Shown one piece after another: positions 1-27,030 of a stretch of 42,909 nucleotides of DNA. Location of the stretch: assembly GCA_015063165.1 (NCBI GenBank), contig SUSZ01000017.1, positions 1 to 42,909 of the forward strand, in the 5' to 3' direction. Source of the stretch: Thermoplasmata archaeon. GTDB taxonomy: Archaea > Thermoplasmatota > Thermoplasmata > Methanomassiliicoccales > Methanomethylophilaceae. The notes below the pieces were generated by a model. It made no database searches. It was not told where the DNA came from and was given only the letters and a program-made list of their open reading frames with translations. The stretch's first letter is position 1. Each line of letters begins with the position of its first letter. The position numbers and the translations under genes are program-made.

Positions 1-118
1 CGTGGAAGGAGGGCGAGGACAGGAAGGAAGGGCAGCGAGGTCGTTGCAGGATCATACATGAAACGTTGGTGGACAACGGATTATGGGCCGTTTTCCGGAC
101 GTCTGGCTAAGGTAAAAA

Positions 119-195
119 TGGTGGACAAGGCGAGATTCGAACTCGCGACTTCTGCCTTGCGAAGGCAGCGATCTACCGGGCTGATCTACTTGCCC
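119..195 (-). tRNA. tRNA-Ala (anticodon CGC), CCA encoded
   Basis: On the minus strand the sequence folds as a full cloverleaf. The seven-pair acceptor stem is GGGCAAG with CTTGTCC, the anticodon stem is CTGCC/GGCAG, and the T arm is GCGAG-TTCGAAT-CTCGC. The seven-base anticodon loop TTCGCAA gives anticodon CGC, which reads the Ala codon GCG. The third acceptor pair is G-U, the alanine identity element, which supports the call. The 3' CCA (119-121) is encoded in the DNA. No intron is seen. An AT-rich box (TTTTATAG, near 233-240) lies upstream on the minus strand and may be its promoter. Confidence 0.96.
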
Positions 196-410
196 ATAAT
201 ACAAATCCGGTGAGTGAGCGCATGACAAATCACTATAAAAGGATTATGTCTTCAAAAAATAGAAGATCAAACGGCCAGCATCTGCTTCCGCCGTTCTTAC
301 GAAGCAAGGGCGAAATCCTCGACCGGATTCCGGCTCTGCGCTTTTCACGTCTCTGACCGTTCTGAGATTCCGTATGAAAATATATATCGCGTCCGTGAAG
401 TTCGAACCTT

Positions 411-815
411 ATGGCAAATCTTTCTCCTGAAATCATAGCCGAGATGAAGAAGCAGGGCGTCTTCGCCCTCGCTACCGCCACCAAGGACGGAATCCCCAAC
501 GTCGTCCCCGTGGGCATGCTGTTCGTCGGAGACGACGGGAAGGTCTGGCTCGTAGACAACTTCCTCAAGAAGACCCTGAAGAACATCCAAGAGAACCCCA
601 GGGTGTCGTTCTACGTCTGGAACCCCGAAGCCAAGGAGTCGTTCCAGGTCAAGGGAACCGCCACCGTCTGCAATTCCGGAGCCGACTACGAGAAGGCCGT
701 CGCCTTCGCTCACTCCAAGAAGGAGACCCTCCCCGCGAAGAACCTGATAAAGATAGACGTCACCGAGGTGTACTACACCACTCCCGGCTCTCACGCCGGC
801 GACCTCGTGAGCTGA
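411..815 (+). CDS. Pyridoxamine 5'-phosphate oxidase-family FMN-binding split-barrel protein
   Basis: This 134-residue protein has the single split-barrel fold pattern of the PNPOx-like superfamily. Early strands read GVFALATATKDGIPNVVPVG, followed by VWLVDNFLKKTLKNIQENP, the usual segment around the flavin phosphate, and then the core strand PRVSFYVW. Its length is typical of small stand-alone members. These bind FMN or F420-like flavins, and many are only known as putative reductases, so the substrate cannot be read here. A TATA-like stretch (near 376-387) sits about 30 bases before the ATG, so the leader is short. A hairpin terminator follows directly, which makes this a single-gene unit. 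Confidence 0.85.
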   Translation: MANLSPEIIAEMKKQGVFALATATKDGIPNVVPVGMLFVGDDGKVWLVDNFLKKTLKNIQENPRVSFYVWNPEAKESFQVKGTATVCNSGADYEKAVAFAHSKKETLPAKNLIKIDVTEVYYTTPGSHAGDLVS

Positions 816-824
816 CAAAGAGCA

Positions 825-855
825 CAGGGGGCCAGACCCCCTGCTAAACTGTTTT
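825..855 (+). terminator. Hairpin terminator after the split-barrel gene
   Basis: A perfect seven-pair stem (CAGGGGG, loop CCAGA, CCCCCTG; 825-843) is followed by TTTT at 852-855. It lies nine bases past the stop codon at 813-815. The next gene reads in the opposite direction and ends at 880, so the hairpin separates convergent transcripts. Confidence 0.6.
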
Positions 856-879
856 CGGTGTCTCACGATGGAGATTCAT

Positions 880-1698
880 TCAGTCATCCATGGGGATCGA
901 ATCGTTCAGGATCACGTGTGGACGCCCGTTGACATCTATGATGTCCGCATCCACCCCGTAGACGTCGCGGATCGATTCCTTTGTCAGCACCTCTTTGGGC
1001 GTTCCGTACGCGTATATGCCTCCGTTGGCTATCATCAGGATCTTGTCCGCATACTTCGCCGTGATGTTGATGTCATGGCTTATCATGATGACGATGCTGT
1101 TCTTCTCCTTGGGCATCTCCGACAGGATCTTGGTGACCTCGATCTGATGGCGGATGTCCAGATTGGAAGTCGGCTCGTCCAGAAGTACCACGGGCGGCGA
1201 CCTCACGAGACCGCGCGCCAGCATGACCTTCTGGTGCTGTCCGGCCGAGAGTTCGTTGAAATCGCGCATCGCCAGATGGTCGATCCTCAGGAGCTTGAGG
1301 ATGTCGTACACCTTGTCGAGGTCGTCCTTCCTCACTCCGAACTTGTAGTCGTTCTGCATCCCCACCATGACGGTGTCCACCACGGTCAGAGGGAACGAAT
1401 CCTCGGATGAGGCAGGAACGTACCCGATCTCGTTCGCGACCTCCTTGAGCTTCATCTCCTTGGTGTCGCGCCCGTTGATGAGGACGGCTCCGCGCGTGGG
1501 CTTGAGGATCTTGTTGATGCAATGGATCAGGGTGGACTTCCCGACCCCGTTGGGGCCCATGATGCATATGAACTCCGGCGTGTCGAAGATGTGGCTGATG
1601 TTCTTCAAAACGGGATTATTTGGGTTGTAGCCGAAGTCGAGGTCCTTGATCTCGATGGTGGCCCTTCCCTTCCCGTTGTTCTCTGTTGTGTCGTCCAT
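880..1698 (-). CDS. ABC transporter ATPase, iron-siderophore/cobamide (FecE/BtuD) type
   Basis: This 272-residue protein is the nucleotide-binding subunit of a type II importer. It has Walker A GPNGVGKST (around residues 49-57), Q-loop region GYVPASSED, the ABC signature LSAGQHQKV, Walker B VVLLDEPTS and the switch histidine in MISHDIN. The C-terminal tail, with the motif VYGVDADIIDVNGRPHVI, is typical of the FecE/BtuD group that handles metal chelates, haem and cobamides. The cargo itself cannot be read from the sequence. It starts four bases after the permease stop codon, so it belongs to the same transcript. It is the last gene of the operon, running into convergent ground. Confidence 0.93.
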   Translation of the reverse strand: MDDTTENNGKGRATIEIKDLDFGYNPNNPVLKNISHIFDTPEFICIMGPNGVGKSTLIHCINKILKPTRGAVLINGRDTKEMKLKEVANEIGYVPASSEDSFPLTVVDTVMVGMQNDYKFGVRKDDLDKVYDILKLLRIDHLAMRDFNELSAGQHQKVMLARGLVRSPPVVLLDEPTSNLDIRHQIEVTKILSEMPKEKNSIVIMISHDINITAKYADKILMIANGGIYAYGTPKEVLTKESIRDVYGVDADIIDVNGRPHVILNDSIPMDD

Positions 1699-1702
1699 GT
1701 TA

Positions 1703-2767
1703 TCACCACATGCTCTTCCTTGCCCTGATCAGGAGCCACATGAACAGCGGGCATCCGATGAAGGCGGTTATCACTCCGACCGGGAGGAACGTGGGCGCGA
1801 TTATCACTCTGGATATGAGGTCGGAGACCATCAGCAGGACTGCTCCGAACGCTGCGGATGCAGGGATCAGGTACCTGTTGTCGGATCCCAGGAATATCCT
1901 CACTATGTGCGGAGCGACCAGCCCGATGAAACCTATGATCCCGGTGAAGCACACCACGGAGGCGGCCATCAGAGAGATGACGATTAGCAGGATTATCCTC
2001 AGCTTGTGGGCGTCCAGACCGAGCGCCGTGGCGTTCTTGTCCCCGGTGATGAGGATGTTAAGCTTCTTCGACATGGCCATCAGGACGGCACCGCCGATCA
2101 CGCAGAATATGGCGATGACCTCGAAGGACTCCCATGTGGACCCGCTCAGGTCTCCGATGGACCACTGGAAGACAGCGGACAGCGACTGCTCCGACAATGT
2201 GAGCTTGATTATCGTCGTGCATGCGTTGAAGAGGTACATCACCGCGATACCCGCCAGGATCATCGTCGCGGCGGAGGTGTGCCTCAGAGAGGAGACGAGG
2301 ATGATGACCGCTGCGGGTATCAGCGAGAAGACGAACGCCATCGCGATGAGCCCGAAGGATCCGGACAGGCCGAAGGTTATTCCGAGCCCCAGAGCCAGGG
2401 TGGCTCCGAAGGACGCACCGGACGATATCCCTGTGGTGTAAGGGTCGGCCAAGGGGTTCTTCATCATGCTCTGCATGGCCGCGCCGGCCACTCCGAGCGA
2501 GGCTCCGGCGACCATTCCGGTGAGTATGCGGGGCAGACGCACGGTGAACACGACCCAGTCGTCGGTAGGGTCGATGTTACCAGGATTGAAAAGGTGATTG
2601 TAGATGGTCTCGTAGACCTGGATCGCCGTCATATCGGCCGAGCCTATCGTGGCCGCATAGCCGATGACGAACACCACTCCCACGATGCAGATGATGATGA
2701 AGAGGATCTTCTTCGCGACGTACTTGTGATAGCTCGCCGCCATCTGATCGGAATCTAATTCTGTCAT
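1703..2767 (-). CDS. FecCD-family ABC transporter permease
   Basis: This 354-residue integral membrane protein has about nine to ten hydrophobic helices and the FecCD/BtuC family hallmarks. The motif RLPRILTGMVAGASLGVAGA is followed by QSMMKNPLADPYTTGISSGA, and FTGIIGFIGLVAPHIVR forms the cytoplasmic coupling segment near the C terminus. It should form the channel of a metal-chelate or cobamide importer together with the ATPase downstream. Its ATG overlaps the stop of the upstream methyltransferase by four bases (ATGA), so the two are translationally coupled. Length is normal for the family. Confidence 0.93.
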   Translation of the reverse strand: MTELDSDQMAASYHKYVAKKILFIIICIVGVVFVIGYAATIGSADMTAIQVYETIYNHLFNPGNIDPTDDWVVFTVRLPRILTGMVAGASLGVAGAAMQSMMKNPLADPYTTGISSGASFGATLALGLGITFGLSGSFGLIAMAFVFSLIPAAVIILVSSLRHTSAATMILAGIAVMYLFNACTTIIKLTLSEQSLSAVFQWSIGDLSGSTWESFEVIAIFCVIGGAVLMAMSKKLNILITGDKNATALGLDAHKLRIILLIVISLMAASVVCFTGIIGFIGLVAPHIVRIFLGSDNRYLIPASAAFGAVLLMVSDLISRVIIAPTFLPVGVITAFIGCPLFMWLLIRARKSMW

Positions 2768-3516
2768 GTCTTTGAATCCTCCTTAGTGAAGAAAATCTCG
2801 AAAGAGCCTACCAAGGACTCCTCATTCACGGATATGAAGCGGCGAAGCTTCATGCGTATCTCGGAGCACGGGAGCGAAGCCAGGATTTCCGCGTCCCATT
2901 GGGGGCGCCTGTGGCTGCTGGCAGGCAGGTCCAGAGCCAGGACGTCCATCTCTCTGAAGTCGACCTGGTCGTCGTTGAACTTGTAATGCGAGCCCACCTG
3001 CCTGCCGGCATGCTCCGAAGGAGGCGACGGCTTGCGACGGTAGGTCTCGTCGTGAAGATGAAGGTAATAGTTTCCGTCGCGGACGTACGCCTTGGCCCCA
3101 GGCTTCATCACCCGGAGCATCTCGCGATACGCCGCTTCCGGATCCGGAAGACTCCAAAAAACATCCCTGGACACGACAGCGTCGAACATCCCGTCGGGGT
3201 AGTCGAGCTTCTGGGCGTCCATATGGCGGACATCGGCGGCGAATCCTGATAGGCGGATATTGTCGCGCGCCCGCGAGACCATTTCCCTGGAATAGTCTAT
3301 GGCATGGAACTCTGCGCCGGTATCTCCAAGGAGCATCTCGAAATAGCCTGGTCCGCAGCCGACATCCAGGACCTTGGTGCCCGGTCCGATTCCGAGCGTC
3401 TCCATGATGTTCTTGCGATACGGATTGGTCCCGTTCTGGATTTCGTCGTTGACGGCCTGTGAAAACCCGGAGCTGCGCCTGTCCCAATAGTCTGCAACCT
3501 GGTCCTTTAACTCCAT
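2764..3516 (-). CDS. Class I SAM-dependent methyltransferase in the ABC uptake operon
   Basis: This 250-residue protein has the Rossmann methyltransferase core. Motif I is VLDVGCGPGYFE (residues 49-60), followed by the acidic end of strand 2 (AIDYSREMV), motif II (MFDAVVSRDVFWSLPDP) and motif III (LRVMKPGAKAYVRDGNYY). The middle part resembles the methyltransferase half of the fusion protein at 5386-6576: both have W-LP-P, DGNYYL and RRP-WD signatures, so the two are paralogues. It overlaps the permease start by four bases. A methyltransferase bound to an uptake operon may modify the imported ligand or a carrier, but this is inference and the acceptor is unknown. Confidence 0.88.
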   Translation of the reverse strand: MELKDQVADYWDRRSSGFSQAVNDEIQNGTNPYRKNIMETLGIGPGTKVLDVGCGPGYFEMLLGDTGAEFHAIDYSREMVSRARDNIRLSGFAADVRHMDAQKLDYPDGMFDAVVSRDVFWSLPDPEAAYREMLRVMKPGAKAYVRDGNYYLHLHDETYRRKPSPPSEHAGRQVGSHYKFNDDQVDFREMDVLALDLPASSHRRPQWDAEILASLPCSEIRMKLRRFISVNEESLVGSFEIFFTKEDSKT

Positions 3517-3534
3517 GTGTATACCTTCGCATAG

Positions 3535-3555
3535 AAAACCGGGGCCGGAGCCCCG
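3535..3555 (-). terminator. Hairpin plus T-run between the substrate-binding gene and the methyltransferase operon
   Basis: On the minus strand CGGGGC-tccg-GCCCCG forms a six-pair stem followed by TTTT (plus-strand A-run 3535-3538). It lies nine bases after the stop of the substrate-binding protein and about 20 bases before the methyltransferase start. Partial termination here would give more binding protein than membrane subunits, a common arrangement in importer operons. Confidence 0.6.
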
Positions 3556-3563
3556 TAAGATGA

Positions 3564-5225
3564 TCAGGAGGACGCGATCAGGTCCGCGAGGTTGTAGTAC
3601 TGGGCGTTGATGCCGTTGACGACGAAATCATCGACCTTGTACTCGGGGTGGTAGCTCTTCAGATAGTCGGCGAACAAGGCGTCGACGTCGAATTTCAAGG
3701 TGATGGAGCTGTTGTCCTCGTAGATCTTGTTGAACATGTACGCGATCGTGATGTAGGACGCGGGCCCCATGTAGGTCCCCTGGTTGAATCCGAAGACGTC
3801 GCCGTCCTTGTATGCCTGGGACTGGTTGATGGCCTGGATGTACTTCAGGTCGGTGTTCTTGAGCTGGTCGACCATCTTGGCGTAGGAGTCCGCCTTGTTG
3901 GCGACATCCCAGGTCTCGAGGAATCCGTAGTACTGGTCGAGGCCAATGTAATCAGGGTTCATCTTGAGGTTGACCTCTTCGATGCTGATGCTTCCGTTGC
4001 TGTATCCGACATCGTAGGGGGTCTTCCCGCCTGCGGCGTAGACCGCCTCGTGGATTCCGTTGTGCATGGTGGAGATGCTGGTTCCGTTGTAGGACTGGAA
4101 GACGAGAGGCCTGTCCTCGAGATCTATGTCGGCGACCGCGTCCTCGATCTTGTCGAGCACATCGGTGACCTTCGCGCCGTATTTGAGAGCAGACTCCTGG
4201 CAGCAGATGAGGAACCCGAGGGTGACGACGGAGGACTCGCAGGTGTTGTCCTCCCAGAAGGGCAGACGGACGACGCTGACGCCGAGAGGCGCGAGGGTGG
4301 TCTCCATGTTCTCATCGAACCAGGCGCGGGTTCCGGAGAGGAACATCTGAGGAGCGCCGCTGTTGATGAAGACCTCGTAGTCAGGGGTGAACCTGGATCC
4401 GATGGGCTTGGCGTCGGCATAGTAGGGGTGGTACCACTTGTAGTAGCTGCTGGAGGAGTCGCTGACCTGGTTGCACGCGTAGGTGCACCTGGAGTTCGCA
4501 TCGCAGATGAGGATGGACTCGTAGTTGGACTTGTATCCGATGGCCATGTCTCCGGTCAGGGGGTACTGGAAGGATGCGAGGACGGAGTCGACGTCGTAGA
4601 AATAGATGTTGACCCTCTCGATTCCGAGGGAGATGAGCTGGTTGGAGGAGATGACTTTGGTGTTGTCCCCCTTGTTGTAGTTGTGGACGGCTCCCTGGAT
4701 GGTGATGATCTTATTGACAAGAGCGGAATCGAGGGCGTCGATCTTCCCGTCGCAATTGGCGTCGGCGAGATAGTAAGTGGTCTTGTTCCCCTTGTAGGTC
4801 CAGGATGCGTCGAGGACAGCGGGGAGGCAGGCGTCGAGAGCGGCCTGGGCAGCTGTGACCTTGGCTGCGGCGGTCGCCTTAGCGGACTCGTCGGTCCCCT
4901 TGTCGGCAGTGCTCTTCTCGGCCTTCGCGGCAGTGAGGTTGGAATAGAGAGGGATGGCTTTCTGGATGAGCGCGACATCGTCCTTGTTGATGACGGAGTC
5001 GCCGTTGGCGTTTCCGAAGACGGTCAGAAGGCCGACATCGGTGCTGGCAGGCTCCCAGGATCCGTAGTCCTTGGGCTGCCAGGTGTCGTCATTGTTGTCG
5101 CCAGAATTGTCGCCGCTGTTGTTTCCGTTGTTGCCGTTGTTGTTGGTGAGAACGAACGCGGCCGCGGCAGCGACAGCGATGACAACAATCGCAGCGATTA
5201 TGGCGATTAATGTTGATTTTTCCAT
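3564..5225 (-). CDS. Membrane-anchored ABC substrate-binding protein with two dockerin-like calcium loops
   Basis: This protein has 553 residues from the chosen start. Residues 5-27 form a hydrophobic anchor, followed by an Asn/Gly/Asp-rich linker (28-48). Two EF-hand-like loops follow. Loop 1 (72-83) has N72, N74, D76, N80 and D83; loop 2 (155-166) has D155, N157, D159, D163 and D166. Each is followed by a short helix as in type I dockerins. They are separated by an Ala/Lys-rich helical stretch (98-140). The rest, from about 185, looks like a TroA/FecB-type binding domain that would feed the permease downstream. The ATG at 5225 is preceded by AGGTG at good spacing; the in-frame ATG nine codons earlier (5252) lacks this. 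The cargo is unknown. Confidence 0.85.
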   Translation of the reverse strand: MEKSTLIAIIAAIVVIAVAAAAAFVLTNNNGNNGNNSGDNSGDNNDDTWQPKDYGSWEPASTDVGLLTVFGNANGDSVINKDDVALIQKAIPLYSNLTAAKAEKSTADKGTDESAKATAAAKVTAAQAALDACLPAVLDASWTYKGNKTTYYLADANCDGKIDALDSALVNKIITIQGAVHNYNKGDNTKVISSNQLISLGIERVNIYFYDVDSVLASFQYPLTGDMAIGYKSNYESILICDANSRCTYACNQVSDSSSSYYKWYHPYYADAKPIGSRFTPDYEVFINSGAPQMFLSGTRAWFDENMETTLAPLGVSVVRLPFWEDNTCESSVVTLGFLICCQESALKYGAKVTDVLDKIEDAVADIDLEDRPLVFQSYNGTSISTMHNGIHEAVYAAGGKTPYDVGYSNGSISIEEVNLKMNPDYIGLDQYYGFLETWDVANKADSYAKMVDQLKNTDLKYIQAINQSQAYKDGDVFGFNQGTYMGPASYITIAYMFNKIYEDNSSITLKFDVDALFADYLKSYHPEYKVDDFVVNGINAQYYNLADLIASS

Positions 5226-5252
5226 TTGAACACCTTTGGAACTATGTTCCAT

Positions 5253-5385
5253 ACCGACTTTAAATTATTAGAGTCGACTTGGATGCTTATTCCGACACAA
5301 AAACTTGAAATACGGTTTATAAACTTTTCCCATTTTGAGGATAACTCATGAAAAAATATTCATATGTCCAATTGGATGATTATGC
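5253..5385. promoter_or_regulatory. Divergent promoter region of the uptake locus
   Basis: This 133-base AT-rich gap separates the binding-protein gene (minus) from the methyltransferase-ArsR fusion (plus). Facing right, TTTATAAA at 5314-5321 is a clear TATA box. Facing left, an AATAATTTAAAG box lies near 5260-5271. The ArsR-type half of the right-hand protein is a natural candidate to act here, though no clear inverted-repeat operator was picked out by eye. Confidence 0.5.
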
Positions 5386-6576
5386 ATGGGTTCCGATGCC
5401 GAGTACAGGGTCTGCAAAGAGGACTCCGATTCCAGCGACGGTCTGAAGAAAAGGACGATGAACTACTGGAACGACCGTGCCAGAGGGTACAAGGAGCTCA
5501 CGCGCCTATGCCTCAAGGAAGAGGACTACGATGTGGTTCGCATCATCGGCCGTTTCATCAATCTGAACCGCCAGCTGAAGGTCGCGGACATGGGCACCGG
5601 CGCTGGCTTCTTCGCCATACTCCTGGCCAAGCAGGGCCACGACGTGACTGCCATGGACAACTGCGAACGCATGCTGGACGCCGCCAGGGAGATCGCGGAG
5701 GAGGAGGGAGTGGAGGTCAATTTCGTCCTAGGGGACATAGAGAGCCCCCAGCTGAAGAAGGGCACGTTCGACCTGGTGGTCTCCAGGAGCACGGTATGGG
5801 GGCTCCCCAATCCCAAAAAGGCGTACAAGGCCTGGAAAGAGCTGCTCAAGCCGGACGGAGAAATGGCGATAATCGACGGAAACTATTACCTCGACCTTTA
5901 CGACGATGACTACCGCAGGCGCATGAACTACCTGAGAAGGGTGAATCTGGACAGGGACAGCGGCCTGCATGCGAAGACCAACGTGGACAACGTGGACTTC
6001 AGCATAATACAGGACATAGCCTACGACCTTCCCTTGAGCAGGGAGCGCAGGCCGGCATGGGACGTGGCAGCGCTCATGAGCGTCGGGATGACCAACATCC
6101 ATGTCAAGTCGCTCGACAAGGAGCAGTACCAGATACTCACAGAGACCGGGATCACCGAGCTCCCGTCGATGTTCGTCGTATGCGCGAAGATGCCTCTGGA
6201 CTCGACCCCCTACATGGACGCGGTCAACTATCCTCTGATCGACAACGAGAGCCTCGTCCGCATAGCCGAAACCGCTAGCGGACGGTACGAGGAGCTGTCC
6301 TCGCTGTTCAAATCCCTGGGCGACAGCAACAGGATGAAGATCATAGCCGCCCTGTTCTCCGGACGCATGAACGTCCAGCAGATTTCCTACATAACAGACA
6401 GCTCCCAGTCGCTCACGTCCCATAACCTCATGGCCCTTCGCAAGGCTGGCCTGGTCGGTACGGAGAAGAACGGAAGGGAGGTCCTGTACCATCTGCTCGA
6501 CCCTTACAGGACGCAGATAATACTGGAGATGAGCGAGATAATCCAGGAGAGGAACAGGGTCCAGAAATCCGACTGA
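5386..6576 (+). CDS. SAM methyltransferase fused to a C-terminal ArsR-type winged helix
   Basis: This 396-residue protein has two parts. Residues about 25-260 are a class I methyltransferase: motif I VADMGTGAGFFAILLA, acidic residue in TAMDNCERML, then FDLVVSRSTVWGLPNP and DGEMAIIDGNYYLDLY. It is a paralogue of the protein at 2764-3516. Residues about 300-385 are an ArsR-like winged helix: LFKSLGDSNRMKIIAALFSG, recognition region SQSLTSHNLMALRKAGLV, wing EKNGREVLYHLL. No obvious CxC metal site is seen in the helix. It is divergent from the uptake genes, so it may regulate them. Known ArsR-methyltransferase fusions often have the opposite domain order. The ligand and acceptor are unknown. Confidence 0.85.
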   Translation: MGSDAEYRVCKEDSDSSDGLKKRTMNYWNDRARGYKELTRLCLKEEDYDVVRIIGRFINLNRQLKVADMGTGAGFFAILLAKQGHDVTAMDNCERMLDAAREIAEEEGVEVNFVLGDIESPQLKKGTFDLVVSRSTVWGLPNPKKAYKAWKELLKPDGEMAIIDGNYYLDLYDDDYRRRMNYLRRVNLDRDSGLHAKTNVDNVDFSIIQDIAYDLPLSRERRPAWDVAALMSVGMTNIHVKSLDKEQYQILTETGITELPSMFVVCAKMPLDSTPYMDAVNYPLIDNESLVRIAETASGRYEELSSLFKSLGDSNRMKIIAALFSGRMNVQQISYITDSSQSLTSHNLMALRKAGLVGTEKNGREVLYHLLDPYRTQIILEMSEIIQERNRVQKSD

Positions 6577-6584
6577 TTTTATAA
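6577..6584 (+). promoter_or_regulatory. TATA box of the NCS2 permease gene
   Basis: TTTTATAA is centred about 26 bases before the ATG at 6607. This is the spacing expected if transcription starts at or next to the start codon, so the message is probably leaderless. The box overlaps the end of the preceding gene. Confidence 0.6.
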
Positions 6585-6606
6585 CGCACAAACGGATTTC
6601 GACGCC

Positions 6607-7989
6607 ATGGGCAGCTTCCTTGACAGCGTGGACTCGTTCTTCCGCATAAGCGAGAGGGGATCCTCTTTCGGGACCGAGATCAAGGGAGGGCTGATCACGT
6701 TCCTCTCGATGTCCTACATACTGGTGGTGAACCCGTTCATACTCGAAGGCGCCGCCGAGGGGTACACATTCCTCCAGCTCTTCACCGCTACTGCTCTGGC
6801 AGCCGCCTTGTCATGCCTGCTGATGGGGTTCTACGCCCGCTTCCCTGTGTCATTGGCTCCAGGGATGGGCATCAACGCGTTCATGGCGTTCACCATCTGC
6901 TACAGCATGGGGTTCACGTTCGAACAGGCCCTGGCGGTGGTGCTCGTCTCAGGTATAGCGTTCTTCCTGATCTCCGTGACAGGCCTCAGGAAAAGGATAA
7001 TCGAGGACATCCCCAACTCGATGAAGCTGGCCATAACCGCCGGAATAGGTTTCTTCATAGTCGTGATCGGCCTGTACAACTCGGGGCTGATAGACTCCGG
7101 AGAGACGTCCGCCATGACGCTCGGGAATCTTTCGGACTCGGGGGTGCTGCTTTCGCTCCTCTGCATTGCCACCACCCTGGCCATGTGGCTCAGGAACAGA
7201 TGGTACGCTGTCATCGGCAGCATACTGATGACCTGGGCGATAGGGCTCGTCCTGGCCTTCATGGGGGTCTATTCCGAGACAGGGCTCATACCCGAGCTGG
7301 AAGGAGTGAAGCTGGTCTCGATGCCGGATGCGACGCTGTTCGGAAAGGTGTTCGAAGGCTTCACCCTGGAAGGGGCGATGATCGTGCCTTTCATCGCCGC
7401 GGCGATTTCCCTTCTGGTGGTGAACATATTCGACACCACCGGCACCCTCATCGGGGTGAGCAAGGCGGCCGGCCTTATGGACGACGAAGGTCATGCGGAA
7501 GGCATAGACAAGGCTATGAAGAGCGACGCCGCGGGATCCATCATCGGAGCCGTCTGCGGAACATCCACTACGACATCTTTCATAGAGTCCGCCACGGGGA
7601 TCGAATCGGGAGCCCGCACCGGGCTGATGACCGTAGTCGTAGGGCTGCTCTTCTTTGTCTCCCTGATCCTAGGCGGGGCGATGGCGACCTTCACCAGCGC
7701 GTGCACCGTCGGCGCGCTCGTGCTTGTGGGAATCATGATGATAAGGAACGTCAGGGAGATCGACTGGCACGACCCTCTCACCTGCGCCATGGCCTTCATG
7801 ACCATATTCATGATGGGCCTCTCCGGATCCATCACGAACGGGATAGCTGCAGGCGTGTTCGTCTATGTCGGAGGCCTTCTGGTTCTCGGCAGGAGGAGGG
7901 AAGTACCCGCCACCCTGTGGATGCTGACGATTCTGTTCCTGGTGTACTTCGTGATAAACTACGCCGCCATCCCGCTCGAATGGATTTGA
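6607..7989 (+). CDS. NCS2 (AzgA/PbuG-type) purine permease
   Basis: This 460-residue protein has about twelve to fourteen membrane segments and the AzgA-subfamily marks. They are GLITFLSMSYILVVNPFIL near the N terminus, the substrate-site stretch SLAPGMGINAFMAF, FDTTGTLIGVSKAAGLMD in the middle, and GTSTTTSFIESATGIESGAR. The subfamily moves guanine, hypoxanthine or adenine with protons. It is probably a purine salvage importer, the exact base not being readable. A TATA box 26 bases upstream suggests a leaderless single-gene transcript, separate from the upstream regulator gene. Confidence 0.92.
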   Translation: MGSFLDSVDSFFRISERGSSFGTEIKGGLITFLSMSYILVVNPFILEGAAEGYTFLQLFTATALAAALSCLLMGFYARFPVSLAPGMGINAFMAFTICYSMGFTFEQALAVVLVSGIAFFLISVTGLRKRIIEDIPNSMKLAITAGIGFFIVVIGLYNSGLIDSGETSAMTLGNLSDSGVLLSLLCIATTLAMWLRNRWYAVIGSILMTWAIGLVLAFMGVYSETGLIPELEGVKLVSMPDATLFGKVFEGFTLEGAMIVPFIAAAISLLVVNIFDTTGTLIGVSKAAGLMDDEGHAEGIDKAMKSDAAGSIIGAVCGTSTTTSFIESATGIESGARTGLMTVVVGLLFFVSLILGGAMATFTSACTVGALVLVGIMMIRNVREIDWHDPLTCAMAFMTIFMMGLSGSITNGIAAGVFVYVGGLLVLGRRREVPATLWMLTILFLVYFVINYAAIPLEWI

Positions 7990-8162
7990 AGTCGAGCGCG
8001 GGGCCCGCGAATGAAGGCCGTGCTCCTCGGTTCGTCCCGTTTATTCACGATTTGCACCATTGGTGTTGAGGAGAACTATCACGATCGGAGCCGTTCCAGT
8101 GGCCTCTAGAATGCATTACGCATACGGTTATATCCTGTAATCTTGATTAAGGAAAGGGTAAC

Positions 8163-8828
8163 ATGGCCAACGAAGACATTTTTGACATCAATGTGGACCT
8201 TGTGATGTGCATCGACGGCACAGGAAGCATGGGACACGTCATCGGCATGGTTAAAGACAACGTCATGACGTTCCACGAGCGTCTCAAGGAATCCCTGAAA
8301 TCCTTCAACAGGGAAGTCGACGAGCTCCGTATAAAAGTCATAGTGTTCAGAGACCTCTCCTGCGACGGCGACAACGCCCTTATCGAATCTCCGTTCTTCC
8401 AGCTCCCCCAGAATGTCGACGATTTCAAGAATTTCGTCATGAAGATCGAGGCCACCGGAGGAGGGGACGCCCCCGAGACCGCTCTCGACGCCATCGCTCT
8501 CGCTATGAAATCGGACTGGGTCAAGACCGGAGCCAAGAGGCGCCACGCCATCATGGTATGGACCGACGCTCCCACCAAGGACATCTACGGAGGAGGAGCC
8601 AACTTCGACCTCCCCAAGTCCAACGCCGAGCTGTTCTCCCTCTGGGACGATCCTCAGATCGGAATGAACCCCAACGCCAAGAGGCTCATCGTGTTCGCTC
8701 CCGACGACCCCTCCTGGGCCTTCGTCGACGAGCTGGAGAACACCTACTGGGCGAAGAGCAACCTGAACGGAGGGCTCGAGGAGTTCGACCTCGAAGCCGT
8801 CCTCAGGACGCTTTCTGCCAGCCTCTGA
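8163..8828 (+). CDS. VWA-domain protein of a kinase/phosphatase locus
   Basis: This 221-residue protein is almost entirely one von Willebrand factor A domain. The metal-ion-dependent adhesion site is D18-G-T20-G-S22 (a DxTxS form of the usual DxSxS), with a later Thr in EATGGGDAPETALDA and the acidic residue D135 in MVWTDAPT. All five metal ligands appear to be present. There is no signal peptide or membrane segment, so it should be cytosolic. It precedes a Ser/Thr kinase and a PP2C phosphatase on the same strand, the combination seen in TerY-P-type stress signalling. It has an AAGGAAAGGG-like ribosome site and a TATATCC box near 8130. A hairpin terminator separates it from the kinase. Confidence 0.88.
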   Translation: MANEDIFDINVDLVMCIDGTGSMGHVIGMVKDNVMTFHERLKESLKSFNREVDELRIKVIVFRDLSCDGDNALIESPFFQLPQNVDDFKNFVMKIEATGGGDAPETALDAIALAMKSDWVKTGAKRRHAIMVWTDAPTKDIYGGGANFDLPKSNAELFSLWDDPQIGMNPNAKRLIVFAPDDPSWAFVDELENTYWAKSNLNGGLEEFDLEAVLRTLSASL

Positions 8829-8837
8829 ACATATCAC

Positions 8838-8868
8838 GAAGGGGGCGTCTCCCCCTTCACCCCATTTT
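8838..8868 (+). terminator. Strong hairpin between the VWA and kinase genes
   Basis: GAAGGGGG-cgtct-CCCCCTTC is a perfect eight-pair stem (8838-8858) with TTTT at 8865-8868. It lies ten bases past the VWA stop codon and would end or thin out the message before the kinase gene. The VWA protein may therefore be made in excess over the kinase and phosphatase. Confidence 0.65.
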
Positions 8869-8890
8869 CCAAGGTGTTCTATTGGAGACC

Positions 8891-10081
8891 ATGCGCGGCT
8901 ATGAGCTGCTCGAAGAATGGACGACGACGGCGAACGGGAGCTACACGTTCGGGCGGAAAGGCTCCAGCGAGTTCTTCATAAAGAAGCTCCCCCAGCCGAA
9001 GTATCCCAACCCCAAGATGCTGACCGGCGAGACCTTCAAGCGCAAGAAGGCGGCCTGCGAGGAGTGGGAGGCCAAGCGCAGAAGGCTCATCGCCGCGCTC
9101 CAGAGAGCATCCTCCACGTGCGCCTTCGTCATAGCCCCGACGGAGTACTTCCTCGAGGGGAACTCCTACTACATAGTGTCCCCCAGGGTCAAGGAGAAGA
9201 AGCTCACTCCGGAACAGGTCTCCGAGCTGGACGCGAGCACCAGGCTGGACGTCATCAAGAAGTACGCCTACGCCCTGAAGGCGCTTGCCGAGAACAACGT
9301 CGTCCACGGCGACATAAAGCACAGCAACGTCTTCGTCGTCAAGGCAAGCAGAGGGTACGAGCCCAGGTTCATCGACTTCGACGACAGCTACTTCTCGGGA
9401 GAGCCCCCCGAACCGGAATCCACTATCGGATCGCCCGAATTCTACTCCCCCGAGCTGGGGAAATACATAATGTCCGACGACCCGGACCTGAAGGGGACCG
9501 TCCAGTGCAAATCAGACGTCTTCGCCTCCGCCATAATGTTCCATGATTACTACACGGGGAAGAGGATGCTCCAGAGGCACGGGAAGTACCCGTTCCAGAT
9601 CGACTCATCCAAGGACATGATCATGGCCATCCCGTCTGGACAGCTCAAGGAGCTGATCAAATCGATGATGGAGGTCGAAGCCAGCAGAAGAGCTGACGCG
9701 AGCACCGTCCTCGAAACCATGAAGGCCATCTGCGGCGAGGCCCCGGCACCTCCCAGGCCTGCTCCCACCATCGCCAAGACCGAGCCCAGGAAGGAGGCCG
9801 AGCCCATCACCGGCGAGAGGATGATTCCCGGAAAGCCGAAATGGACCTACGTGATGGCCGACGGGACCCAGAGGATGCTCCCGCCCGCGGTCGCCAGAGG
9901 CATGGCCGAGGACAAGGGCATACCCATCGTCGGCGAGGAGGAGCCCAGGAAGGAGGCCGAGCCCAAGAAGGAGGAGGTCGTCAAAAAGGACGACAAGTAC
10001 GTCTGGGTGAAGAAGACCGACGGAACCGTGAGCAAGCTCGCGAAGAAGATCTACGATGCGATAGTGGGTGATAAGCCATGA
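8891..10081 (+). CDS. Eukaryotic-type Ser/Thr protein kinase with a repeated C-terminal tail
   Basis: This 396-residue protein has a kinase domain at about residues 1-282. It shows the ATP lysine in FFIKKL (K31 or K32), the catalytic loop HGDIKHSN (H139, D141, N146), the metal motif DFD (163-165, DFD in place of DFG), SPE at 186-188, the helix-F Asp D209 and a helix-I Arg near 267. All key residues are present, so it should be active. The tail (283-396) is Pro/Glu/Lys-rich, with EPRKEAEP occurring twice (298-305 and 351-358) and two similar modules (KWTYVMADGTQRML and KYVWVKKTDGTVSKL). A TTG nine bases upstream (8882), with AAGGTG before it, is a possible alternative start. It overlaps the phosphatase gene by four bases. 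Confidence 0.88.
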   Translation: MRGYELLEEWTTTANGSYTFGRKGSSEFFIKKLPQPKYPNPKMLTGETFKRKKAACEEWEAKRRRLIAALQRASSTCAFVIAPTEYFLEGNSYYIVSPRVKEKKLTPEQVSELDASTRLDVIKKYAYALKALAENNVVHGDIKHSNVFVVKASRGYEPRFIDFDDSYFSGEPPEPESTIGSPEFYSPELGKYIMSDDPDLKGTVQCKSDVFASAIMFHDYYTGKRMLQRHGKYPFQIDSSKDMIMAIPSGQLKELIKSMMEVEASRRADASTVLETMKAICGEAPAPPRPAPTIAKTEPRKEAEPITGERMIPGKPKWTYVMADGTQRMLPPAVARGMAEDKGIPIVGEEEPRKEAEPKKEEVVKKDDKYVWVKKTDGTVSKLAKKIYDAIVGDKP

Positions 10082-12306
10082 AGAGCGACCTTCTGTTCGA
10101 TGTGCCTTTCCCCGGCCATGCGGAGGATGCCCCTCCGGTAGCCGACGAAAGGATGGCCATAGTGTGCGACGGCCTCGGAGGCGCCGGCGGAGTGGAGTTC
10201 GAGGTGGACGGAGAGGTCCACACCTGTGCCTACTACGCGTCCCGCGCCGTGATCGCCGTCGTGAAGAAGTTCCTGGAGGACAACTACGACTTCGCGTTCT
10301 CCGACGGGATGCGCCACCTGGACCAGATCGCAGTCGACATGAAAACAGCCATCAGGAGAGACCTCCAGGCGTACTCCGACGAGACAGGGATCAATTTCAA
10401 GGGGAGGAAGTCGGGAGGATCGATGGTGAAGCTGCTCCCGACCACGCTGGCATCCTGCATCTACCAGGACAAGGGGGACCACGTGGAAGTCGTCTGCTTC
10501 TGGGCGGGCGATTCCAGGTGCTACGCCCTGGGAAAGGACGGGCTGCACCAGCTCATGGATGACGACGCCAGAGGCTACATAGACGCCATGGAGTGCATAA
10601 TCCAGGACGCCGTGATGAACAACGTGATCTGCCTGGACCACGACTTCCACATCAGCTGGAAGGCGTACAGCATACCCAAGCCCTGCATAGTGTTCGCCGC
10701 CTCCGACGGGTGCTTCGCCTATCTGGAGTCCCCGATGAGCTTCGAATCCATATTCCTGCCCAGGACGGGAGCCGAGTTCGACCTCGAGAAGTCCATCCAG
10801 GAATCCCTCGAAGCGCATGAGAACGACGACCGCACCCTCGCCGGGCACATATTCGGCATTTCGTCCCCGGAGGAGTACATCGAAATGTTCAGCCCCAGAG
10901 GGAACGCCATCGAGTCCGAATTCATGTCGAAGATGGTCCTCACCCCGAAGATAGACGAGCTCAGGGCCAAGCGCAACGAGATGGGATCCAGGGATCTGAC
11001 CGAGGAGGAGAAGGTCGAGTACGGAGAGGTCAAAGCCGAGCTCAAGAACCTGAGGAAGCAGAACGAGGACCTGATGAGGTCCCTCTGGAACGTCTACAGC
11101 AAAGGATATCTGCTAGAACCTCTGGCCCTCGAACAGGAGCCGGTGGTTATCGTAGAGGAGCCTGAGCCGGTGGAGCCAGAACCGGTGGAACCCGTGGAGG
11201 AGCCCAAGACCCCTGCGGAGAAGGATGCGCCGAAGACTAGAACGCCCATGGAGGCCGAGATCCCCAAGACCGAGAAGCCTGCGGAGAAGGACGCTCCTGG
11301 CAAGGAGACGCCTGTGGAGGCCGAGACCAAGCCCCTTAAGGCCAAAAAGATCCCCGTGAAGGACGCCCTCCCGGATGCGGACGACGAGCTCTCTCCGACT
11401 TACGATTACGTCAAGCCTTCGTTCAAGGACATAGGCGCAGACGTCCCCGAGAAGGATTCGGGAGTCCGCCCGCTCGTCATGGGACCTGATTGGACCGTTC
11501 CGAACAGGACTGTCAACGAGACGGACATCTCCCTGATCATGCCCTACGCGATGAACAAGACCTTCATGATGGAGACCCGCCGTGCAAGGGTGGTCCAGGG
11601 CCTCCTGGTGGAGGACGACTGGGTCAGGTGCGGCGACACTCTCACCACCCTCTGCAACAAGAACAAGAGCCCCCGCAACGCCAGAAGGATATTCGTGAAG
11701 AAGCGCGACAACTACGACATAGAGCGCAACTCCACGATCCTGGACAGGATATCCTCGTTCAACGAGGGTCGCTTCATACTTCCCGCCGAGAAGTATATGC
11801 TATCGGACATCTACGTCCAGACATTCACGTGCAGCCAGTCCGGGATGGAGGATTTCAGCATCCTACGCAAGTACGGAAAGCTGGACAAGCAATACCTCGA
11901 GCTGGAGCTGTGCAAATCCGTGAAGGACCTTCACGACATGGGCATCGTCCATGGTGCCATCTCGCCCGAATCGCTGATCGTCCTCAAGACCAAAGGCGGA
12001 CACCTCAGGCCCATACTGCTCAACTTCTGCGACGCCTTCCTGATGAAGGACGCGGACGACATGGAGAGGATGGACCCGGTCGAAAGAGGCCCGTGGTACG
12101 ACGTCTACTGCCTCGGGATGCTGTTCTACAAGATCTCCGTCAGGAACGTCGACGACAGGATCGTCGTGGAGCAATGCAACCTCTACAAGAAGGGCGGAGA
12201 CCGCGACTGGAAGATGGATCTCATAAGCTCGATGCTGTCGAAGGACCCGTCCAAGAGGCCAGACCTGTCCAGCGTCATCGACACGCTGAACCGCAACATG
12301 TTCTGA
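10078..12306 (+). CDS. PP2C-type phosphatase fused to a pseudokinase domain
   Basis: This 742-residue protein has an N-terminal PP2C phosphatase (about 1-275). Its metal and core motifs are CDGLGG (30-35), PTTLASC (121-127), AGDSRCY (143-149), ASDG (208-211) and ENDDRTLA (248-255). A helical segment (about 285-345) leads to a Pro/Glu/Lys-rich linker (355-435). The C terminus (about 480-742) has a kinase fold but lost catalysis: the catalytic loop reads HGAISPES (A627 for Asp, S632 for Asn) and the DFG site is NFC (649-651). The helix-F Asp (D675) and helix-I Arg (R727) remain. It would bind rather than phosphorylate. It is translationally coupled to the active kinase, so phosphatase and kinase probably act on the same targets. 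Confidence 0.88.
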   Translation: MKSDLLFDVPFPGHAEDAPPVADERMAIVCDGLGGAGGVEFEVDGEVHTCAYYASRAVIAVVKKFLEDNYDFAFSDGMRHLDQIAVDMKTAIRRDLQAYSDETGINFKGRKSGGSMVKLLPTTLASCIYQDKGDHVEVVCFWAGDSRCYALGKDGLHQLMDDDARGYIDAMECIIQDAVMNNVICLDHDFHISWKAYSIPKPCIVFAASDGCFAYLESPMSFESIFLPRTGAEFDLEKSIQESLEAHENDDRTLAGHIFGISSPEEYIEMFSPRGNAIESEFMSKMVLTPKIDELRAKRNEMGSRDLTEEEKVEYGEVKAELKNLRKQNEDLMRSLWNVYSKGYLLEPLALEQEPVVIVEEPEPVEPEPVEPVEEPKTPAEKDAPKTRTPMEAEIPKTEKPAEKDAPGKETPVEAETKPLKAKKIPVKDALPDADDELSPTYDYVKPSFKDIGADVPEKDSGVRPLVMGPDWTVPNRTVNETDISLIMPYAMNKTFMMETRRARVVQGLLVEDDWVRCGDTLTTLCNKNKSPRNARRIFVKKRDNYDIERNSTILDRISSFNEGRFILPAEKYMLSDIYVQTFTCSQSGMEDFSILRKYGKLDKQYLELELCKSVKDLHDMGIVHGAISPESLIVLKTKGGHLRPILLNFCDAFLMKDADDMERMDPVERGPWYDVYCLGMLFYKISVRNVDDRIVVEQCNLYKKGGDRDWKMDLISSMLSKDPSKRPDLSSVIDTLNRNMF

Positions 12307-12360
12307 AAACACCTCGGGCCCGACAGCGATGCCGGACCCTGGCTTTCTTCTTCAAAGACT

Positions 12361-12534
12361 TCAGTCCTCGTCGTCCTCTACGGGCTTCAGAAGCTGGGGC
12401 GCCATTCCCATGATGGCGGCCACGGGGATCAGGAGGAGACAGAAGTAGTTATTAGTCATGATGGTGAAAGGAATGCCGATGATGGCGCCCGCGATGGCTC
12501 CGAAGAAGAGCCCCTGCTTCGCCTTGGCGTCCAT
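12361..12534 (-). CDS. Small membrane protein (57 aa) downstream of purB
   Basis: This short reading frame starts one base after the purB stop codon (TGA-G-ATG) and encodes 57 residues. Two hydrophobic segments (about 8-25 and 30-45) are joined by a short polar turn (MTNN). A basic N terminus (MDAKAKQG) and an acidic tail (PVEDDED) suggest a two-helix hairpin with both ends in the cytoplasm. I do not recognise a family. The tight spacing and good membrane pattern make it likely real and cotranscribed with purB. Its function is unknown. Confidence 0.7.
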   Translation of the reverse strand: MDAKAKQGLFFGAIAGAIIGIPFTIMTNNYFCLLLIPVAAIMGMAPQLLKPVEDDED

Positions 12535-12535
12535 C

Positions 12536-13903
12536 TCACTCTACCTTCCTTCCCAGGACCTTCTCGGCCTCTGCGACCATGTTGTCGACGATCTCCCTGG
12601 CTCCGCCGACGTAGTTGGCAGCGTCCATGGTCTCGACGATCTCGTCGCGAGTGAGGACTCCCTTGAGATCCTCCCTCTCCATCAGGACGTCCCTGAGGTG
12701 CCTTCCGGTGTCCTCGGCGACCATCGACGACTCGCGGATGATCTCGTGCGCGTCCTGCCTTCCGATTCCCTTCTGAGTGAGCTTCATCATGAGGGGCTCT
12801 GCCATGACAAGTCCCTTGGAGGACTCTATGTTGTAGAGCATCTTGTCCCTGTGGACGTCGAGGCCCTCGAAGATCCAGTTCATCTTCTTGAGGATCTCGT
12901 CCATGAGGATGAATACGTGGGGAAGGGTGAACCTCTCGGTAGAGGAGTTGGAAAGATCCCTCTCGTGCCACAGAACCTGGCTCTCGAAGGTGGGGGTGAC
13001 GAAGCTCCTGACGATCCTCGCGAGCCCGCAGACGTTCTCCGAGTTCATGGGGTTCCTCTTCTGGGCCATGGTGGAGCTTCCTACCTGCTTCTTCACGTCG
13101 AAGAACTCGGAAGCCTCGCCGATCTCGGACCTCTGGAGGTTCCTGATCTCGGTCCCGTACCTCTCCAGAGAGGTAGCGATGTTCGCCATGAGGCAGATGG
13201 CCTCGGTGTACCTGTCGCGTCCGACGACCTGCGTGGCTGCAGGCTCGTACGTGAGTCCGAGGTCCTCCATCACGAGCGACTGTATCTTGAAGAAGTTCTT
13301 TCCCAGCGCGGCACCGGTTCCTACGGCTCCCGCCATCTTCCCGGCGCAGACCCTGGGCATGGCCTGGATTATGCGCTCCCTGTGCCTGAGCATCTCGGCG
13401 ACGTATCCGGCGATCTTGAATCCGAAAGTGATAGGGATGGCGAACTGAGCATGGGTCCTGCCTATCTCGAGGGTGTCCCTCTCCTTCTTGGCCAGGGATG
13501 CGAGCGTATAGATGAAGACGTCCACATCGTCGAGGATCATCGTCATGGCCGCCTTGAGCTGGAGAGCGGTGGCGGTATCGACGATATCGTTGGATGTCGC
13601 GCCGAGGTGTACGTACTTTCCGGCGTCCCCGGAGCACTTCTCGGTCATGGCCTTGACCATCGCCATGAGGTCGTGCCTCGTTTCCTTCTCGATCTCCTTT
13701 ATCCTATCGACGCTAACGACGTCGAGGCTGGCCACGCGCGAGATCTCGTCTGCATCCGCCTTGGATATGGTGCCGAGAGACGCGTGCGCCCTCGCCAAAG
13801 CCGCTTCCACATTCATCTGGTACTGAATGCGGCTCTCTTCGCTGAAAACCGCTTTCATTCCCTCGCGGCCGTATCTGTAGTCAAGGGGACAGACATTGCT
13901 CAT
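12536..13903 (-). CDS. purB: Adenylosuccinate lyase
   Basis: This 455-residue enzyme of the fumarase/aspartase superfamily splits adenylosuccinate to AMP and SAICAR to AICAR, each with release of fumarate, in purine synthesis. It has the N-terminal CPLDYRYG typical of archaeal PurB, the substrate-binding ATSNDIVDTA, the active-site THAQ stretch, and the signature GSSTMAQKRNPMNSE. The start at 13903 was chosen because a TATA box (TATTATAA, 13933-13940) places the transcription start a few bases upstream of it. An in-frame ATG at 13921 is the alternative. A small membrane-protein gene follows directly. Confidence 0.93.
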   Translation of the reverse strand: MSNVCPLDYRYGREGMKAVFSEESRIQYQMNVEAALARAHASLGTISKADADEISRVASLDVVSVDRIKEIEKETRHDLMAMVKAMTEKCSGDAGKYVHLGATSNDIVDTATALQLKAAMTMILDDVDVFIYTLASLAKKERDTLEIGRTHAQFAIPITFGFKIAGYVAEMLRHRERIIQAMPRVCAGKMAGAVGTGAALGKNFFKIQSLVMEDLGLTYEPAATQVVGRDRYTEAICLMANIATSLERYGTEIRNLQRSEIGEASEFFDVKKQVGSSTMAQKRNPMNSENVCGLARIVRSFVTPTFESQVLWHERDLSNSSTERFTLPHVFILMDEILKKMNWIFEGLDVHRDKMLYNIESSKGLVMAEPLMMKLTQKGIGRQDAHEIIRESSMVAEDTGRHLRDVLMEREDLKGVLTRDEIVETMDAANYVGGAREIVDNMVAEAEKVLGRKVE

Positions 13904-14165
13904 TTGAATCGAATCGGCCATCGGCCAAGTAGTTATAATATGTTGCCCTTTGCCAGAGCCGGAAACCTGGGAGATCCGGATCGGGAAACAGTTAACACCC
14001 ATTAATTGCTATAGAAACAGACGGACATCCCCGCAATTCTTCGTACACGTCGGGTTTAATCCAGGATGCATCCGTAGAAATCCTTATATTATAGGCATTA
14101 ATAGGGCAGGATAGAAGTGGGTCATGCTTCTGCTCATGGCCAAGTCGAATATTGAGTGATGATTT

Positions 14166-25563: not shown

Positions 25564-27030
25564 CTAGGCGAGACCGTAGCGGGCCTTGGACTCCGGGGAG
25601 CCACTCATGGTCAGACGGTAGATGGAATCGATCATGTCGCCGTAGAGCTCGGGATCGTCCAGCTCCAGAAGAAGATCGAAGTAGGTGTCGCGGATGTCCT
25701 CCCCCCTGAAAGCTTCCGCCACTGGCTTCATCAGTCTAGCGGCCTCTCCGAGGTCCTTTTCTATGCCTATGCCGTAGCGATACGCTTTGGACAGACGTTT
25801 CAAGGCCCACTTGTACCCTTTATCCGACCCTTCCTTGACCACCTCTATCATCTTGGGATAGAATTCGGGATCCTTCTCCTCCCAATAGATGTCGAAGAGG
25901 TCCTTGTATGCGCCCCTCATCCCGCCGTTTATGACCTTCTGAATCATGGATTCAGCCCTGAGGAAGTCCTTCTCCACGAACATCCCCTCCGCATACAACT
26001 TGGCCATCTCGACCTCCGCCTGCGGGAGTTTCTGGGACATCATCCTCTCGAGTATGCCAAGTGCTTCGTCGCGGTCACCGTCGCGCTTGAACTCCAGGAA
26101 CCTCTCGATACCGTTCCTGATGCTGAGGATCTCACCTGCCCTTATCTGGGAGAACAAAACAGAATATTCGAAATACAGGTCCTCCAGACGACGCTCTACA
26201 CCTTCTCCTCCGAAGACTATAGTCTCTATGCAACGCTCCAGATAGGCGTAGTGCTCCTCGATGTAGTGAAGAGTGTAAAGTCCCCACCGGTGGTACACGT
26301 CCGCCATCTGGAACATGGGGCACTTGATGTAATAACATCCGGTGGCACGGATGAAATCGAGATTGAACCTCATCAGAAAAGCGTTGTTGATCGCCATCAT
26401 GTCACTCGAGGACTCTTGAATCGTGCCGTCGAAATCAAGGAAGAATCCCGCGTCCAGAGAACAGTTGAGGATGATCCTGTCCCCGTACCTGTCCTTGACG
26501 AATCCGACCAGTCTGTCGAAGCATTCCTTGTACTCCGCTTCGGAATAGCCTGTCCCGATATCCTCCAACGTGTGATTGATACCCATCTCCCACAGTATCT
26601 CGCTGATCCCATACCTGTGGGCAGTCTTGTTAGAAACGTAGTCGAAGGAACCGTCCGCATAGGTGAGCTTCGATACCCCGTATATGTCCGCTCTGCCGTC
26701 GATGAGAAGCCATTCAGACCCAGAACGGCTGAGGTCCTTCGTCAGGGTCTTATTGTAGTCTGCCAGAGCAGATTTGCGGGCGATTCCCGTAGAGAACGAC
26801 GACGCCTCCGACCTGACCTTCTGCAGATCCTCCAAGGTTAGTTCCGGACCGTTGCGCTTGGTGAACTGGGACACGAACGAGCAGGCCTTGTAATACTTGT
26901 TCACTTTGATGCGGCCTTCCGAGCCGCGGAACTCGTCCTGCACCCTGAAGATGTCGCGATTGACGCAGATTCCCCAGATGTCAATCTTTACCTGATCATC
27001 TGTTAAATCGTCAGCCTTATTATCAGACAT
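25564..27030 (-). CDS. DUF6270-like domain fused to Sel1 repeats
   Basis: This 488-residue protein has two regions. The N-terminal part (about 15-290) opens with IDIWGICVNRDIFRV and has LLIDGRADIYGV, DAGFFLDF and a C-terminal HYIEEHYAYLERCI. This resembles DUF6270, an SGNH-hydrolase-like family beside surface-polysaccharide genes, with Cys in place of the usual Ser in G-C-V. The C-terminal part (about 320-488) has Sel1-type repeats, for example AEVEMAKLYAEGMFVEKDFL and ALKRLSKAYRYGIGIEKDLG. The assignment to DUF6270 is from pattern memory and moderate. A TATATATCC box (near 27047-27055) is upstream. Confidence 0.65.
   Translation of the reverse strand: MSDNKADDLTDDQVKIDIWGICVNRDIFRVQDEFRGSEGRIKVNKYYKACSFVSQFTKRNGPELTLEDLQKVRSEASSFSTGIARKSALADYNKTLTKDLSRSGSEWLLIDGRADIYGVSKLTYADGSFDYVSNKTAHRYGISEILWEMGINHTLEDIGTGYSEAEYKECFDRLVGFVKDRYGDRIILNCSLDAGFFLDFDGTIQESSSDMMAINNAFLMRFNLDFIRATGCYYIKCPMFQMADVYHRWGLYTLHYIEEHYAYLERCIETIVFGGEGVERRLEDLYFEYSVLFSQIRAGEILSIRNGIERFLEFKRDGDRDEALGILERMMSQKLPQAEVEMAKLYAEGMFVEKDFLRAESMIQKVINGGMRGAYKDLFDIYWEEKDPEFYPKMIEVVKEGSDKGYKWALKRLSKAYRYGIGIEKDLGEAARLMKPVAEAFRGEDIRDTYFDLLLELDDPELYGDMIDSIYRLTMSGSPESKARYGLA

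Follow-up and report, generated by a model that had tools for sequence, protein, structure and literature searches.

A TerY-P-like VWA, kinase, and PP2C triad in a methanogenic archaeon, assigned by sequence to a second, mostly bacterial triad family

Introduction

TerY-P triads consist of a TerY-like VWA protein, a PP2C phosphatase, and a kinase with a C-terminal zinc ribbon, and they have been tied to stress resistance and antiphage systems (PMC11090510). The GAP1-N2 GTPase systems of Actinobacteria have vWA, PP2C, and kinase sets alongside them (PMC7159879). A first-pass annotation of the window, the whole 42,909-nucleotide stretch of DNA from a Thermoplasmata archaeon analyzed here, likened three of its genes to the TerY-P triad and framed them as a possible stand-alone archaeal version. 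The sequences now assign the window triad to a different place: it is predicted to be an archaeal, laterally acquired form of another family of VWA-PP2C-kinase triads, one found mostly in bacteria. The literature searches, which covered Anantharaman et al. 2012 as cited in PMC11090510, returned no description of this window-type family.

Results

Domain organization of the window triad

The VWA, Ser/Thr kinase, and PP2C genes, the last with a C-terminal pseudokinase, are consecutive on the + strand at 8163–12306 (Table 1). The ORFs and their coordinates were verified, including the four-base overlap in which the kinase stop and the PP2C start share ATGA at 10078–10081, and the first-pass description of three same-strand genes stands. 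The listed kinase ORF of 507 aa reaches upstream into the VWA gene. Its homologues begin at the ATG at 8891, which is most likely the real start. The hairpin between the VWA and kinase genes is also present in genomes G092, where two pairs are changed on both sides, and G041 (z = -3.3, -1.6, and -3.4 at the three archaeal loci with the hairpin), and it was not seen in G095 or G099. It could give unequal expression of the adaptor and the enzymes.

Table 1. Features of the window triad, its insertion site, and the TerY-P-like triads
Feature	Position	Strand	Evidence
VWA protein, 221 aa; MIDAS D18-G-T20-G-S22 / D135; integrin beta-I-like fold	8163–8828	+	Pfam VWA_4, conserved residues, AlphaFold/Foldseek
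Hairpin, 8-bp stem, 5-nt loop, inside the 62-bp VWA-kinase gap	8838–8858	+	z-scores, three archaeal loci
Hanks-type Ser/Thr kinase, 396 aa	8891–10081	+	Pkinase 4.5e-16; triad-family kinase profile 313 bits; K31, HGDIK--N, DFD
PP2C phosphatase domain, residues 1–340 of the 742-aa protein (10078–12306), metal ligands intact	10078–11097	+	triad-family PP2C profile 310.6 bits
Pro/Glu-rich linker, probably disordered	11098–11590	+	sequence; pLDDT about 30
Pseudokinase domain fused to PP2C, boundaries approximate	11591–12306	+	triad kinase profile 44.5 bits
Inserted stretch of about 11.5 kb containing the triad	816–12363	.	flanking genes adjoin in at least ten triad-less genomes of the same genus
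Flavin-reductase-like gene, conserved, left flank of insertion	411–815	+	
Small membrane-type ORF, conserved, right flank	12364–12459	-	
Adenylosuccinate lyase, next to the small ORF	12536–14002	-	
TerY-P-like triad, VWA with DTSGSM; BspA-type LRR genes nearby	L136 (G000:C11) 4776–7159 and about 7.3–8.8 kb	-	
TerY-P-like triad, G092 counterpart	L137 (G092:C63) 2004–6625		

The window VWA is matched by Pfam VWA_4 (E = 4.6e-12) and VWA_2 (3.4e-6). Residues D18, T20, S22, and D135 of the MIDAS are invariant in 22 relatives, in agreement with the earlier reading of an intact metal site of the DxTxS kind. The AlphaFold model has a pLDDT of 90.9, and the solved folds nearest to it in Foldseek are integrin beta-I/VWA domains. 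Related VWA domains also occur inside large surface-type proteins at loci L012 and L013 (genomes G042 and G093), the one at L013 with BspA-like repeats; these matches were rejected as triads.

The catalytic residues of the kinase were as first described: K31, H139-G-D141-x-K143, N146, and D162-F163 are invariant across the family, a residue set that does not include the alpha-C Glu. The residue after DF is D or E in triad-family kinases (DFD/DFE), not the G of DFG, and the window kinase has DFD. Its catalytic domain spans about residues 1–290, and the C-terminal tail that follows holds two short repeats that include DGT. There are no Cys pairs in this tail, and hence no C-terminal zinc ribbon.

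Pfam scored PP2C below its cut-offs on the 742-aa protein. With the triad-family PP2C profile, cyanobacterial tPphA is a match at 3.5e-7 and tPphA variants are matches at 1.3e-7, and tPphA is the best fold match of the structure model. The residues expected to bind metal (E16 D17, D31 G32, D145, D210 G211, and D250) are invariant. These data support the PP2C assignment. The C-terminal domain matches the profile of the triad's own kinase at residues 549–662 and 713–739, and apparently derives from that kinase family. The structure model of this part is of low confidence, and the domain call rests on sequence: HGA-S-S replaces HGD-K-N and NFC replaces DFG, which makes it the pseudokinase that had been proposed. 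The window and G092 copies have a clear pseudokinase. In G095 and G041 it can barely be detected, and it was found neither in G099 nor in any bacterial PP2C tested.

Distribution of the window-type family

Of 147 genomes from the archaeal order, five carry the triad, namely the source genome (G000), G092, G095, G041, and G099, at 30–93% identity. All five have the gene order VWA-kinase-PP2C. An assembly artefact was rejected since the triad is kept in G092, where it is 93/81/60% conserved relative to the window. A draw of 390 genomes from the phylum gave, beyond these triads, remote VWA matches alone.

A scan of 84,980 prokaryotic species with alignment A6 as the query (A3 was set aside as too diverse) found at least 425 VWA relatives, and the gene context was examined for the best 80. 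Of these best 80 from at least 425, 72 have a profile-detected PP2C and kinase no more than 4 kb away and on the VWA strand, mostly in the order VWA-PP2C-kinase. The hosts are mostly gut Clostridia, then Bacteroidota and Actinomycetota. Of the remaining 8, some are truncated where the contig stops, and five belong to a Cytophagales type in which the VWA stands alone, with no kinase or PP2C within 4 kb (L035, L036, L041, L043, and L049). The VWA and kinase also occur together on plasmids of Herpetosiphon (VWA-PP2C-kinase) and Calothrix (VWA-kinase-PP2C), as detected by tblastn. The linkage of the three genes is far beyond chance, and a chance neighbourhood was rejected because the linkage recurs across genomes. 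Conservation of gene order in related genomes, the check proposed with the first-pass annotation, was found: five genomes in archaea and about 70 loci in bacteria show it.

The family profiles, built mainly from bacterial loci and with the window rows included, score the window VWA, PP2C, and kinase at 283, 311, and 313 bits, respectively. A quick tree of 86 VWAs places the five archaeal rows in one clade (SH-aLRT 96), and the bacterial rows nearest to it include a Eubacteriaceae MAG. The end branches are long, and therefore the tree does not pin down the donor. The idea of a stand-alone archaeal form was not supported: the module is mainly bacterial, its archaeal copies are one patchy clade, and bacterial loci have Ter-type neighbours (TerD and zinc ribbons). 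The archaeal peculiarities are the VWA-kinase-PP2C gene order and the PP2C-pseudokinase fusion.

The viral contigs searched held no relative of the triad. The phage collection yielded a single match, an unverified 12 kb faecal scaffold labelled ‘Bacteriophage sp.’ (L016; MT836186.1). It encodes integrases, one of them beside PP2C-kinase-VWA at 109–5065. This scaffold is probably a bacterial integrative element and less like a phage.

The triad lies in an inserted stretch

The source genome is 2.28 Mb and 99.9% complete, and it encodes McrA and PylS; the host is therefore a gut methanogen within the Thermoplasmatota, and most likely belongs to the Methanomassiliicoccales. The lyase, the small ORF, and the flavin-reductase-like gene are neighbours in same-genus genomes that lack the triad. 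In the occupied site, the gap between the small ORF and the flavin-reductase-like gene is about 10 kb in G092, compared to the longer stretch in the window (Table 1). The comparison of empty and occupied sites and the patchy distribution point to gain of the triad by lateral transfer rather than its loss everywhere else. Elsewhere in the window, the gene at 25564–27030 (- strand) encodes a DUF6270 protein that weakly matches a Sel1 repeat and is unrelated to the triad.

The insertions in the window and G092 both hold transporter and methyltransferase genes together with the triad. This shared content would fit a triad that controls its insertion neighbours, which in the window are a FecCD/periplasmic-binding transporter, two methyltransferases, and a purine permease, and thus cofactor or nutrient uptake. 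We consider this role improbable: the transporter genes are on the opposite strand, the permease is away from the triad in G092, and such neighbours are missing at the other archaeal and bacterial loci.

Neighbours of window-type triads

Zinc-ribbon proteins with an N-terminal, RanBP-like ribbon are encoded in 36 of 87 triad loci, always on the same strand, downstream of or within the triad, and often less than 50 bp away. Their C-termini vary and include Sel1 repeats, BspA LRRs, and membrane segments (for example L027 14760–15686, L046 4546–7186, and L045 12629–14355), so the RanBP-like ribbon resembles a docking tag shared by outputs that otherwise differ. TerD is encoded in 11 bacterial triad loci, in every case downstream on the same strand. 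The bacterial loci also recurrently have a transglutaminase-like gene (downstream, same strand) and YbjN genes (mostly upstream). The Ter link of the window-type triad is real at the neighbourhood level, in bacteria.

Among the archaeal loci, G095 has YbjN directly 3′ of the PP2C and a second YbjN and a transglutaminase gene upstream, G041 has a transglutaminase gene 33 bp upstream of the triad, and G099 has a divergent transglutaminase gene. Close to the window copy there is no YbjN, transglutaminase-like, TerD, zinc-ribbon, or STAND-like gene. YbjN and transglutaminase-like genes are present elsewhere in the source genome, away from the window triad. The absence of a Ter partner was correctly noted at the outset: no effector or Ter gene adjoins the window triad, and TerD was found neither in the source genome nor in any of the 147 genomes of the order. 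Large STAND-like NTPase/TPR proteins with weak profile matches lie beside the triad in the G095 and G099 loci (L009 2537–7553 and L011 13103–17948), and they are possible effectors.

These STAND-like/TPR genes, the patchy distribution, and the inserted location are features that an anti-phage defence module would have, one in which the kinase triggers a shut-down, as in the STK-OB TerY-P-like or MADS-type systems. The best NCBIfam match of the window kinase is MAD6 (2.8e-17, below the cut-off), and its PADLOC matches are MkoA, mad6, and PD-T4-6. However, the MAD6 and PADLOC matches reflect shared kinase-domain similarity, and the window operon encodes no nuclease, methylase, or other effector. 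The VWA and PP2C match no PADLOC model, but YegL and PphC of E. coli escape these models too, and the silence is uninformative. Overall, we judge a defence module to be a rather unlikely identity for the triad.

Comparison with TerY-P

The TerY-P reference proteins were from E. coli K-12 (the yegL/pphC/yegI region) and two Ter plasmids. The TerY profile scores the window VWA at 4.6 bits, compared to 86.5 bits for the VWA on contig C11 of the same genome, and the hhalign probability between the window VWA and TerY is 30%. The TerY-P profiles give -0.5 bits on the window PP2C and 8.5 bits on the window kinase. In the reverse direction, the plasmid TerY-P kinase scores 43 bits and the plasmid PP2C 17 bits with the window-family profiles, and the hhalign values are 97% and 95%, respectively. 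Adjacent VWA, PP2C, and kinase genes are thus what the window locus shares with TerY-P; a TerY-type VWA, a kinase zinc ribbon, a PP2C and kinase of the subfamily, and a TerD link were not found in it.

The C11 locus is a second triad. It encodes a TerY-like VWA, a PP2C carrying leucine-rich repeats (an LRR-like C-terminus), and a zinc-ribbon kinase, and a transglutaminase gene adjoins it. C11-type kinases carry CxC...CxxC, and G092 holds the same TerY-P-like set. A profile search of the source genome returned only three Pkinase-like matches, namely the kinases of the window and TerY-P-like triads and one weak match. In the C11-type kinase gene of the source genome, a single in-frame TAG stands at a position that is Tyr in G092 (FI-Y-HPTD). 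Both pyrrolysine, as the organism has PylS, and a nonsense change are possible at this codon. The two triads of the source genome are different sequence families with one architecture.

Canonical TerY-P identity was rejected on the VWA scores, the missing kinase zinc ribbon, and the remoteness of the PP2C and kinase. The alternative of a genuine TerY-P triad in the window, now stripped of its Ter partners, draws on the same three activities and on the plasmid kinase and PP2C found by the family profiles. It is highly improbable given the near-noise score of the window VWA, the ribbonless kinase, and a second triad in the same genome that does fit TerY-P. The resemblance first noted therefore survives as a three-gene unit and an architecture, but not as kinship.

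Discussion

Ser/Thr signalling in archaea is poorly understood. The locus provides a defined kinase-phosphatase-adaptor set for archaeal signalling, and its parts are testable. With moderate confidence, we interpret the window triad as a laterally acquired, TerY-P-like (not TerY-P) reversible phosphorylation switch with a probable role in stress or conflict. The Hanks kinase would phosphorylate itself, a client, or both, and the PP2C would remove the phosphate that the kinase adds. The VWA would be the adaptor: its metal-dependent site may bind an acidic or phosphorylated partner and bring this partner into a complex with the enzyme pair. The fused pseudokinase may tether the phosphatase, with either the kinase or the VWA as the docking site. 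The DFD motif in place of DFG, a catalytic residue set without an assigned alpha-C Glu, and the lack of an effector or Ter gene beside the window copy count against this model. The switch would then serve a stress or genetic-conflict response, which is probably its role and is the weakest step of the model, being based on neighbourhoods in other organisms and the TerY-P literature.

A broader proposal is more speculative, and we put it forward tentatively. The window triad may represent a widespread, unnamed triad class that is sequence-independent of TerY-P but has outputs of the same types (TerD, zinc ribbons, YbjN, and transglutaminase-like proteases). This class would have spread laterally from gut bacteria to methanogens as a conflict or stress switch, with a pseudokinase added as a regulator. 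The architecture tied to tellurite resistance and antiphage systems exists in at least two sequence families, which have common neighbourhood partners and can co-reside in one genome. Two families with a shared architecture make the role of TerY-P-like triads easier to approach by comparison.

Three described systems are closest to the window triad. The MADS MAD6 and PD-T4-6 kinases have a related Hanks kinase domain. However, the window kinase scores 62.5 bits against a MAD6 cut-off of 460, and other MADS genes were not seen. The GAP1-N2-associated sets (PMC7159879), compared by description only, are similar in having a stand-alone vWA, an active PP2C, and an active kinase as neighbours and in their zinc ribbon theme. 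The window triad differs in having no noted GAP1-N2 component nearby, and the GAP1-N2-associated sets may include actinobacterial members of the window-type family. TerY-P has the same three predicted activities and operon architecture, and bacterial window-type members lie near TerD or zinc-ribbon genes. In contrast to TerY-P, the window-type VWA is of another family (DxTxS, GGGDxPE), the zinc ribbon is a separate downstream gene in bacterial window-type loci and is absent from the window, and the PP2C of archaeal window-type copies is fused to a pseudokinase.
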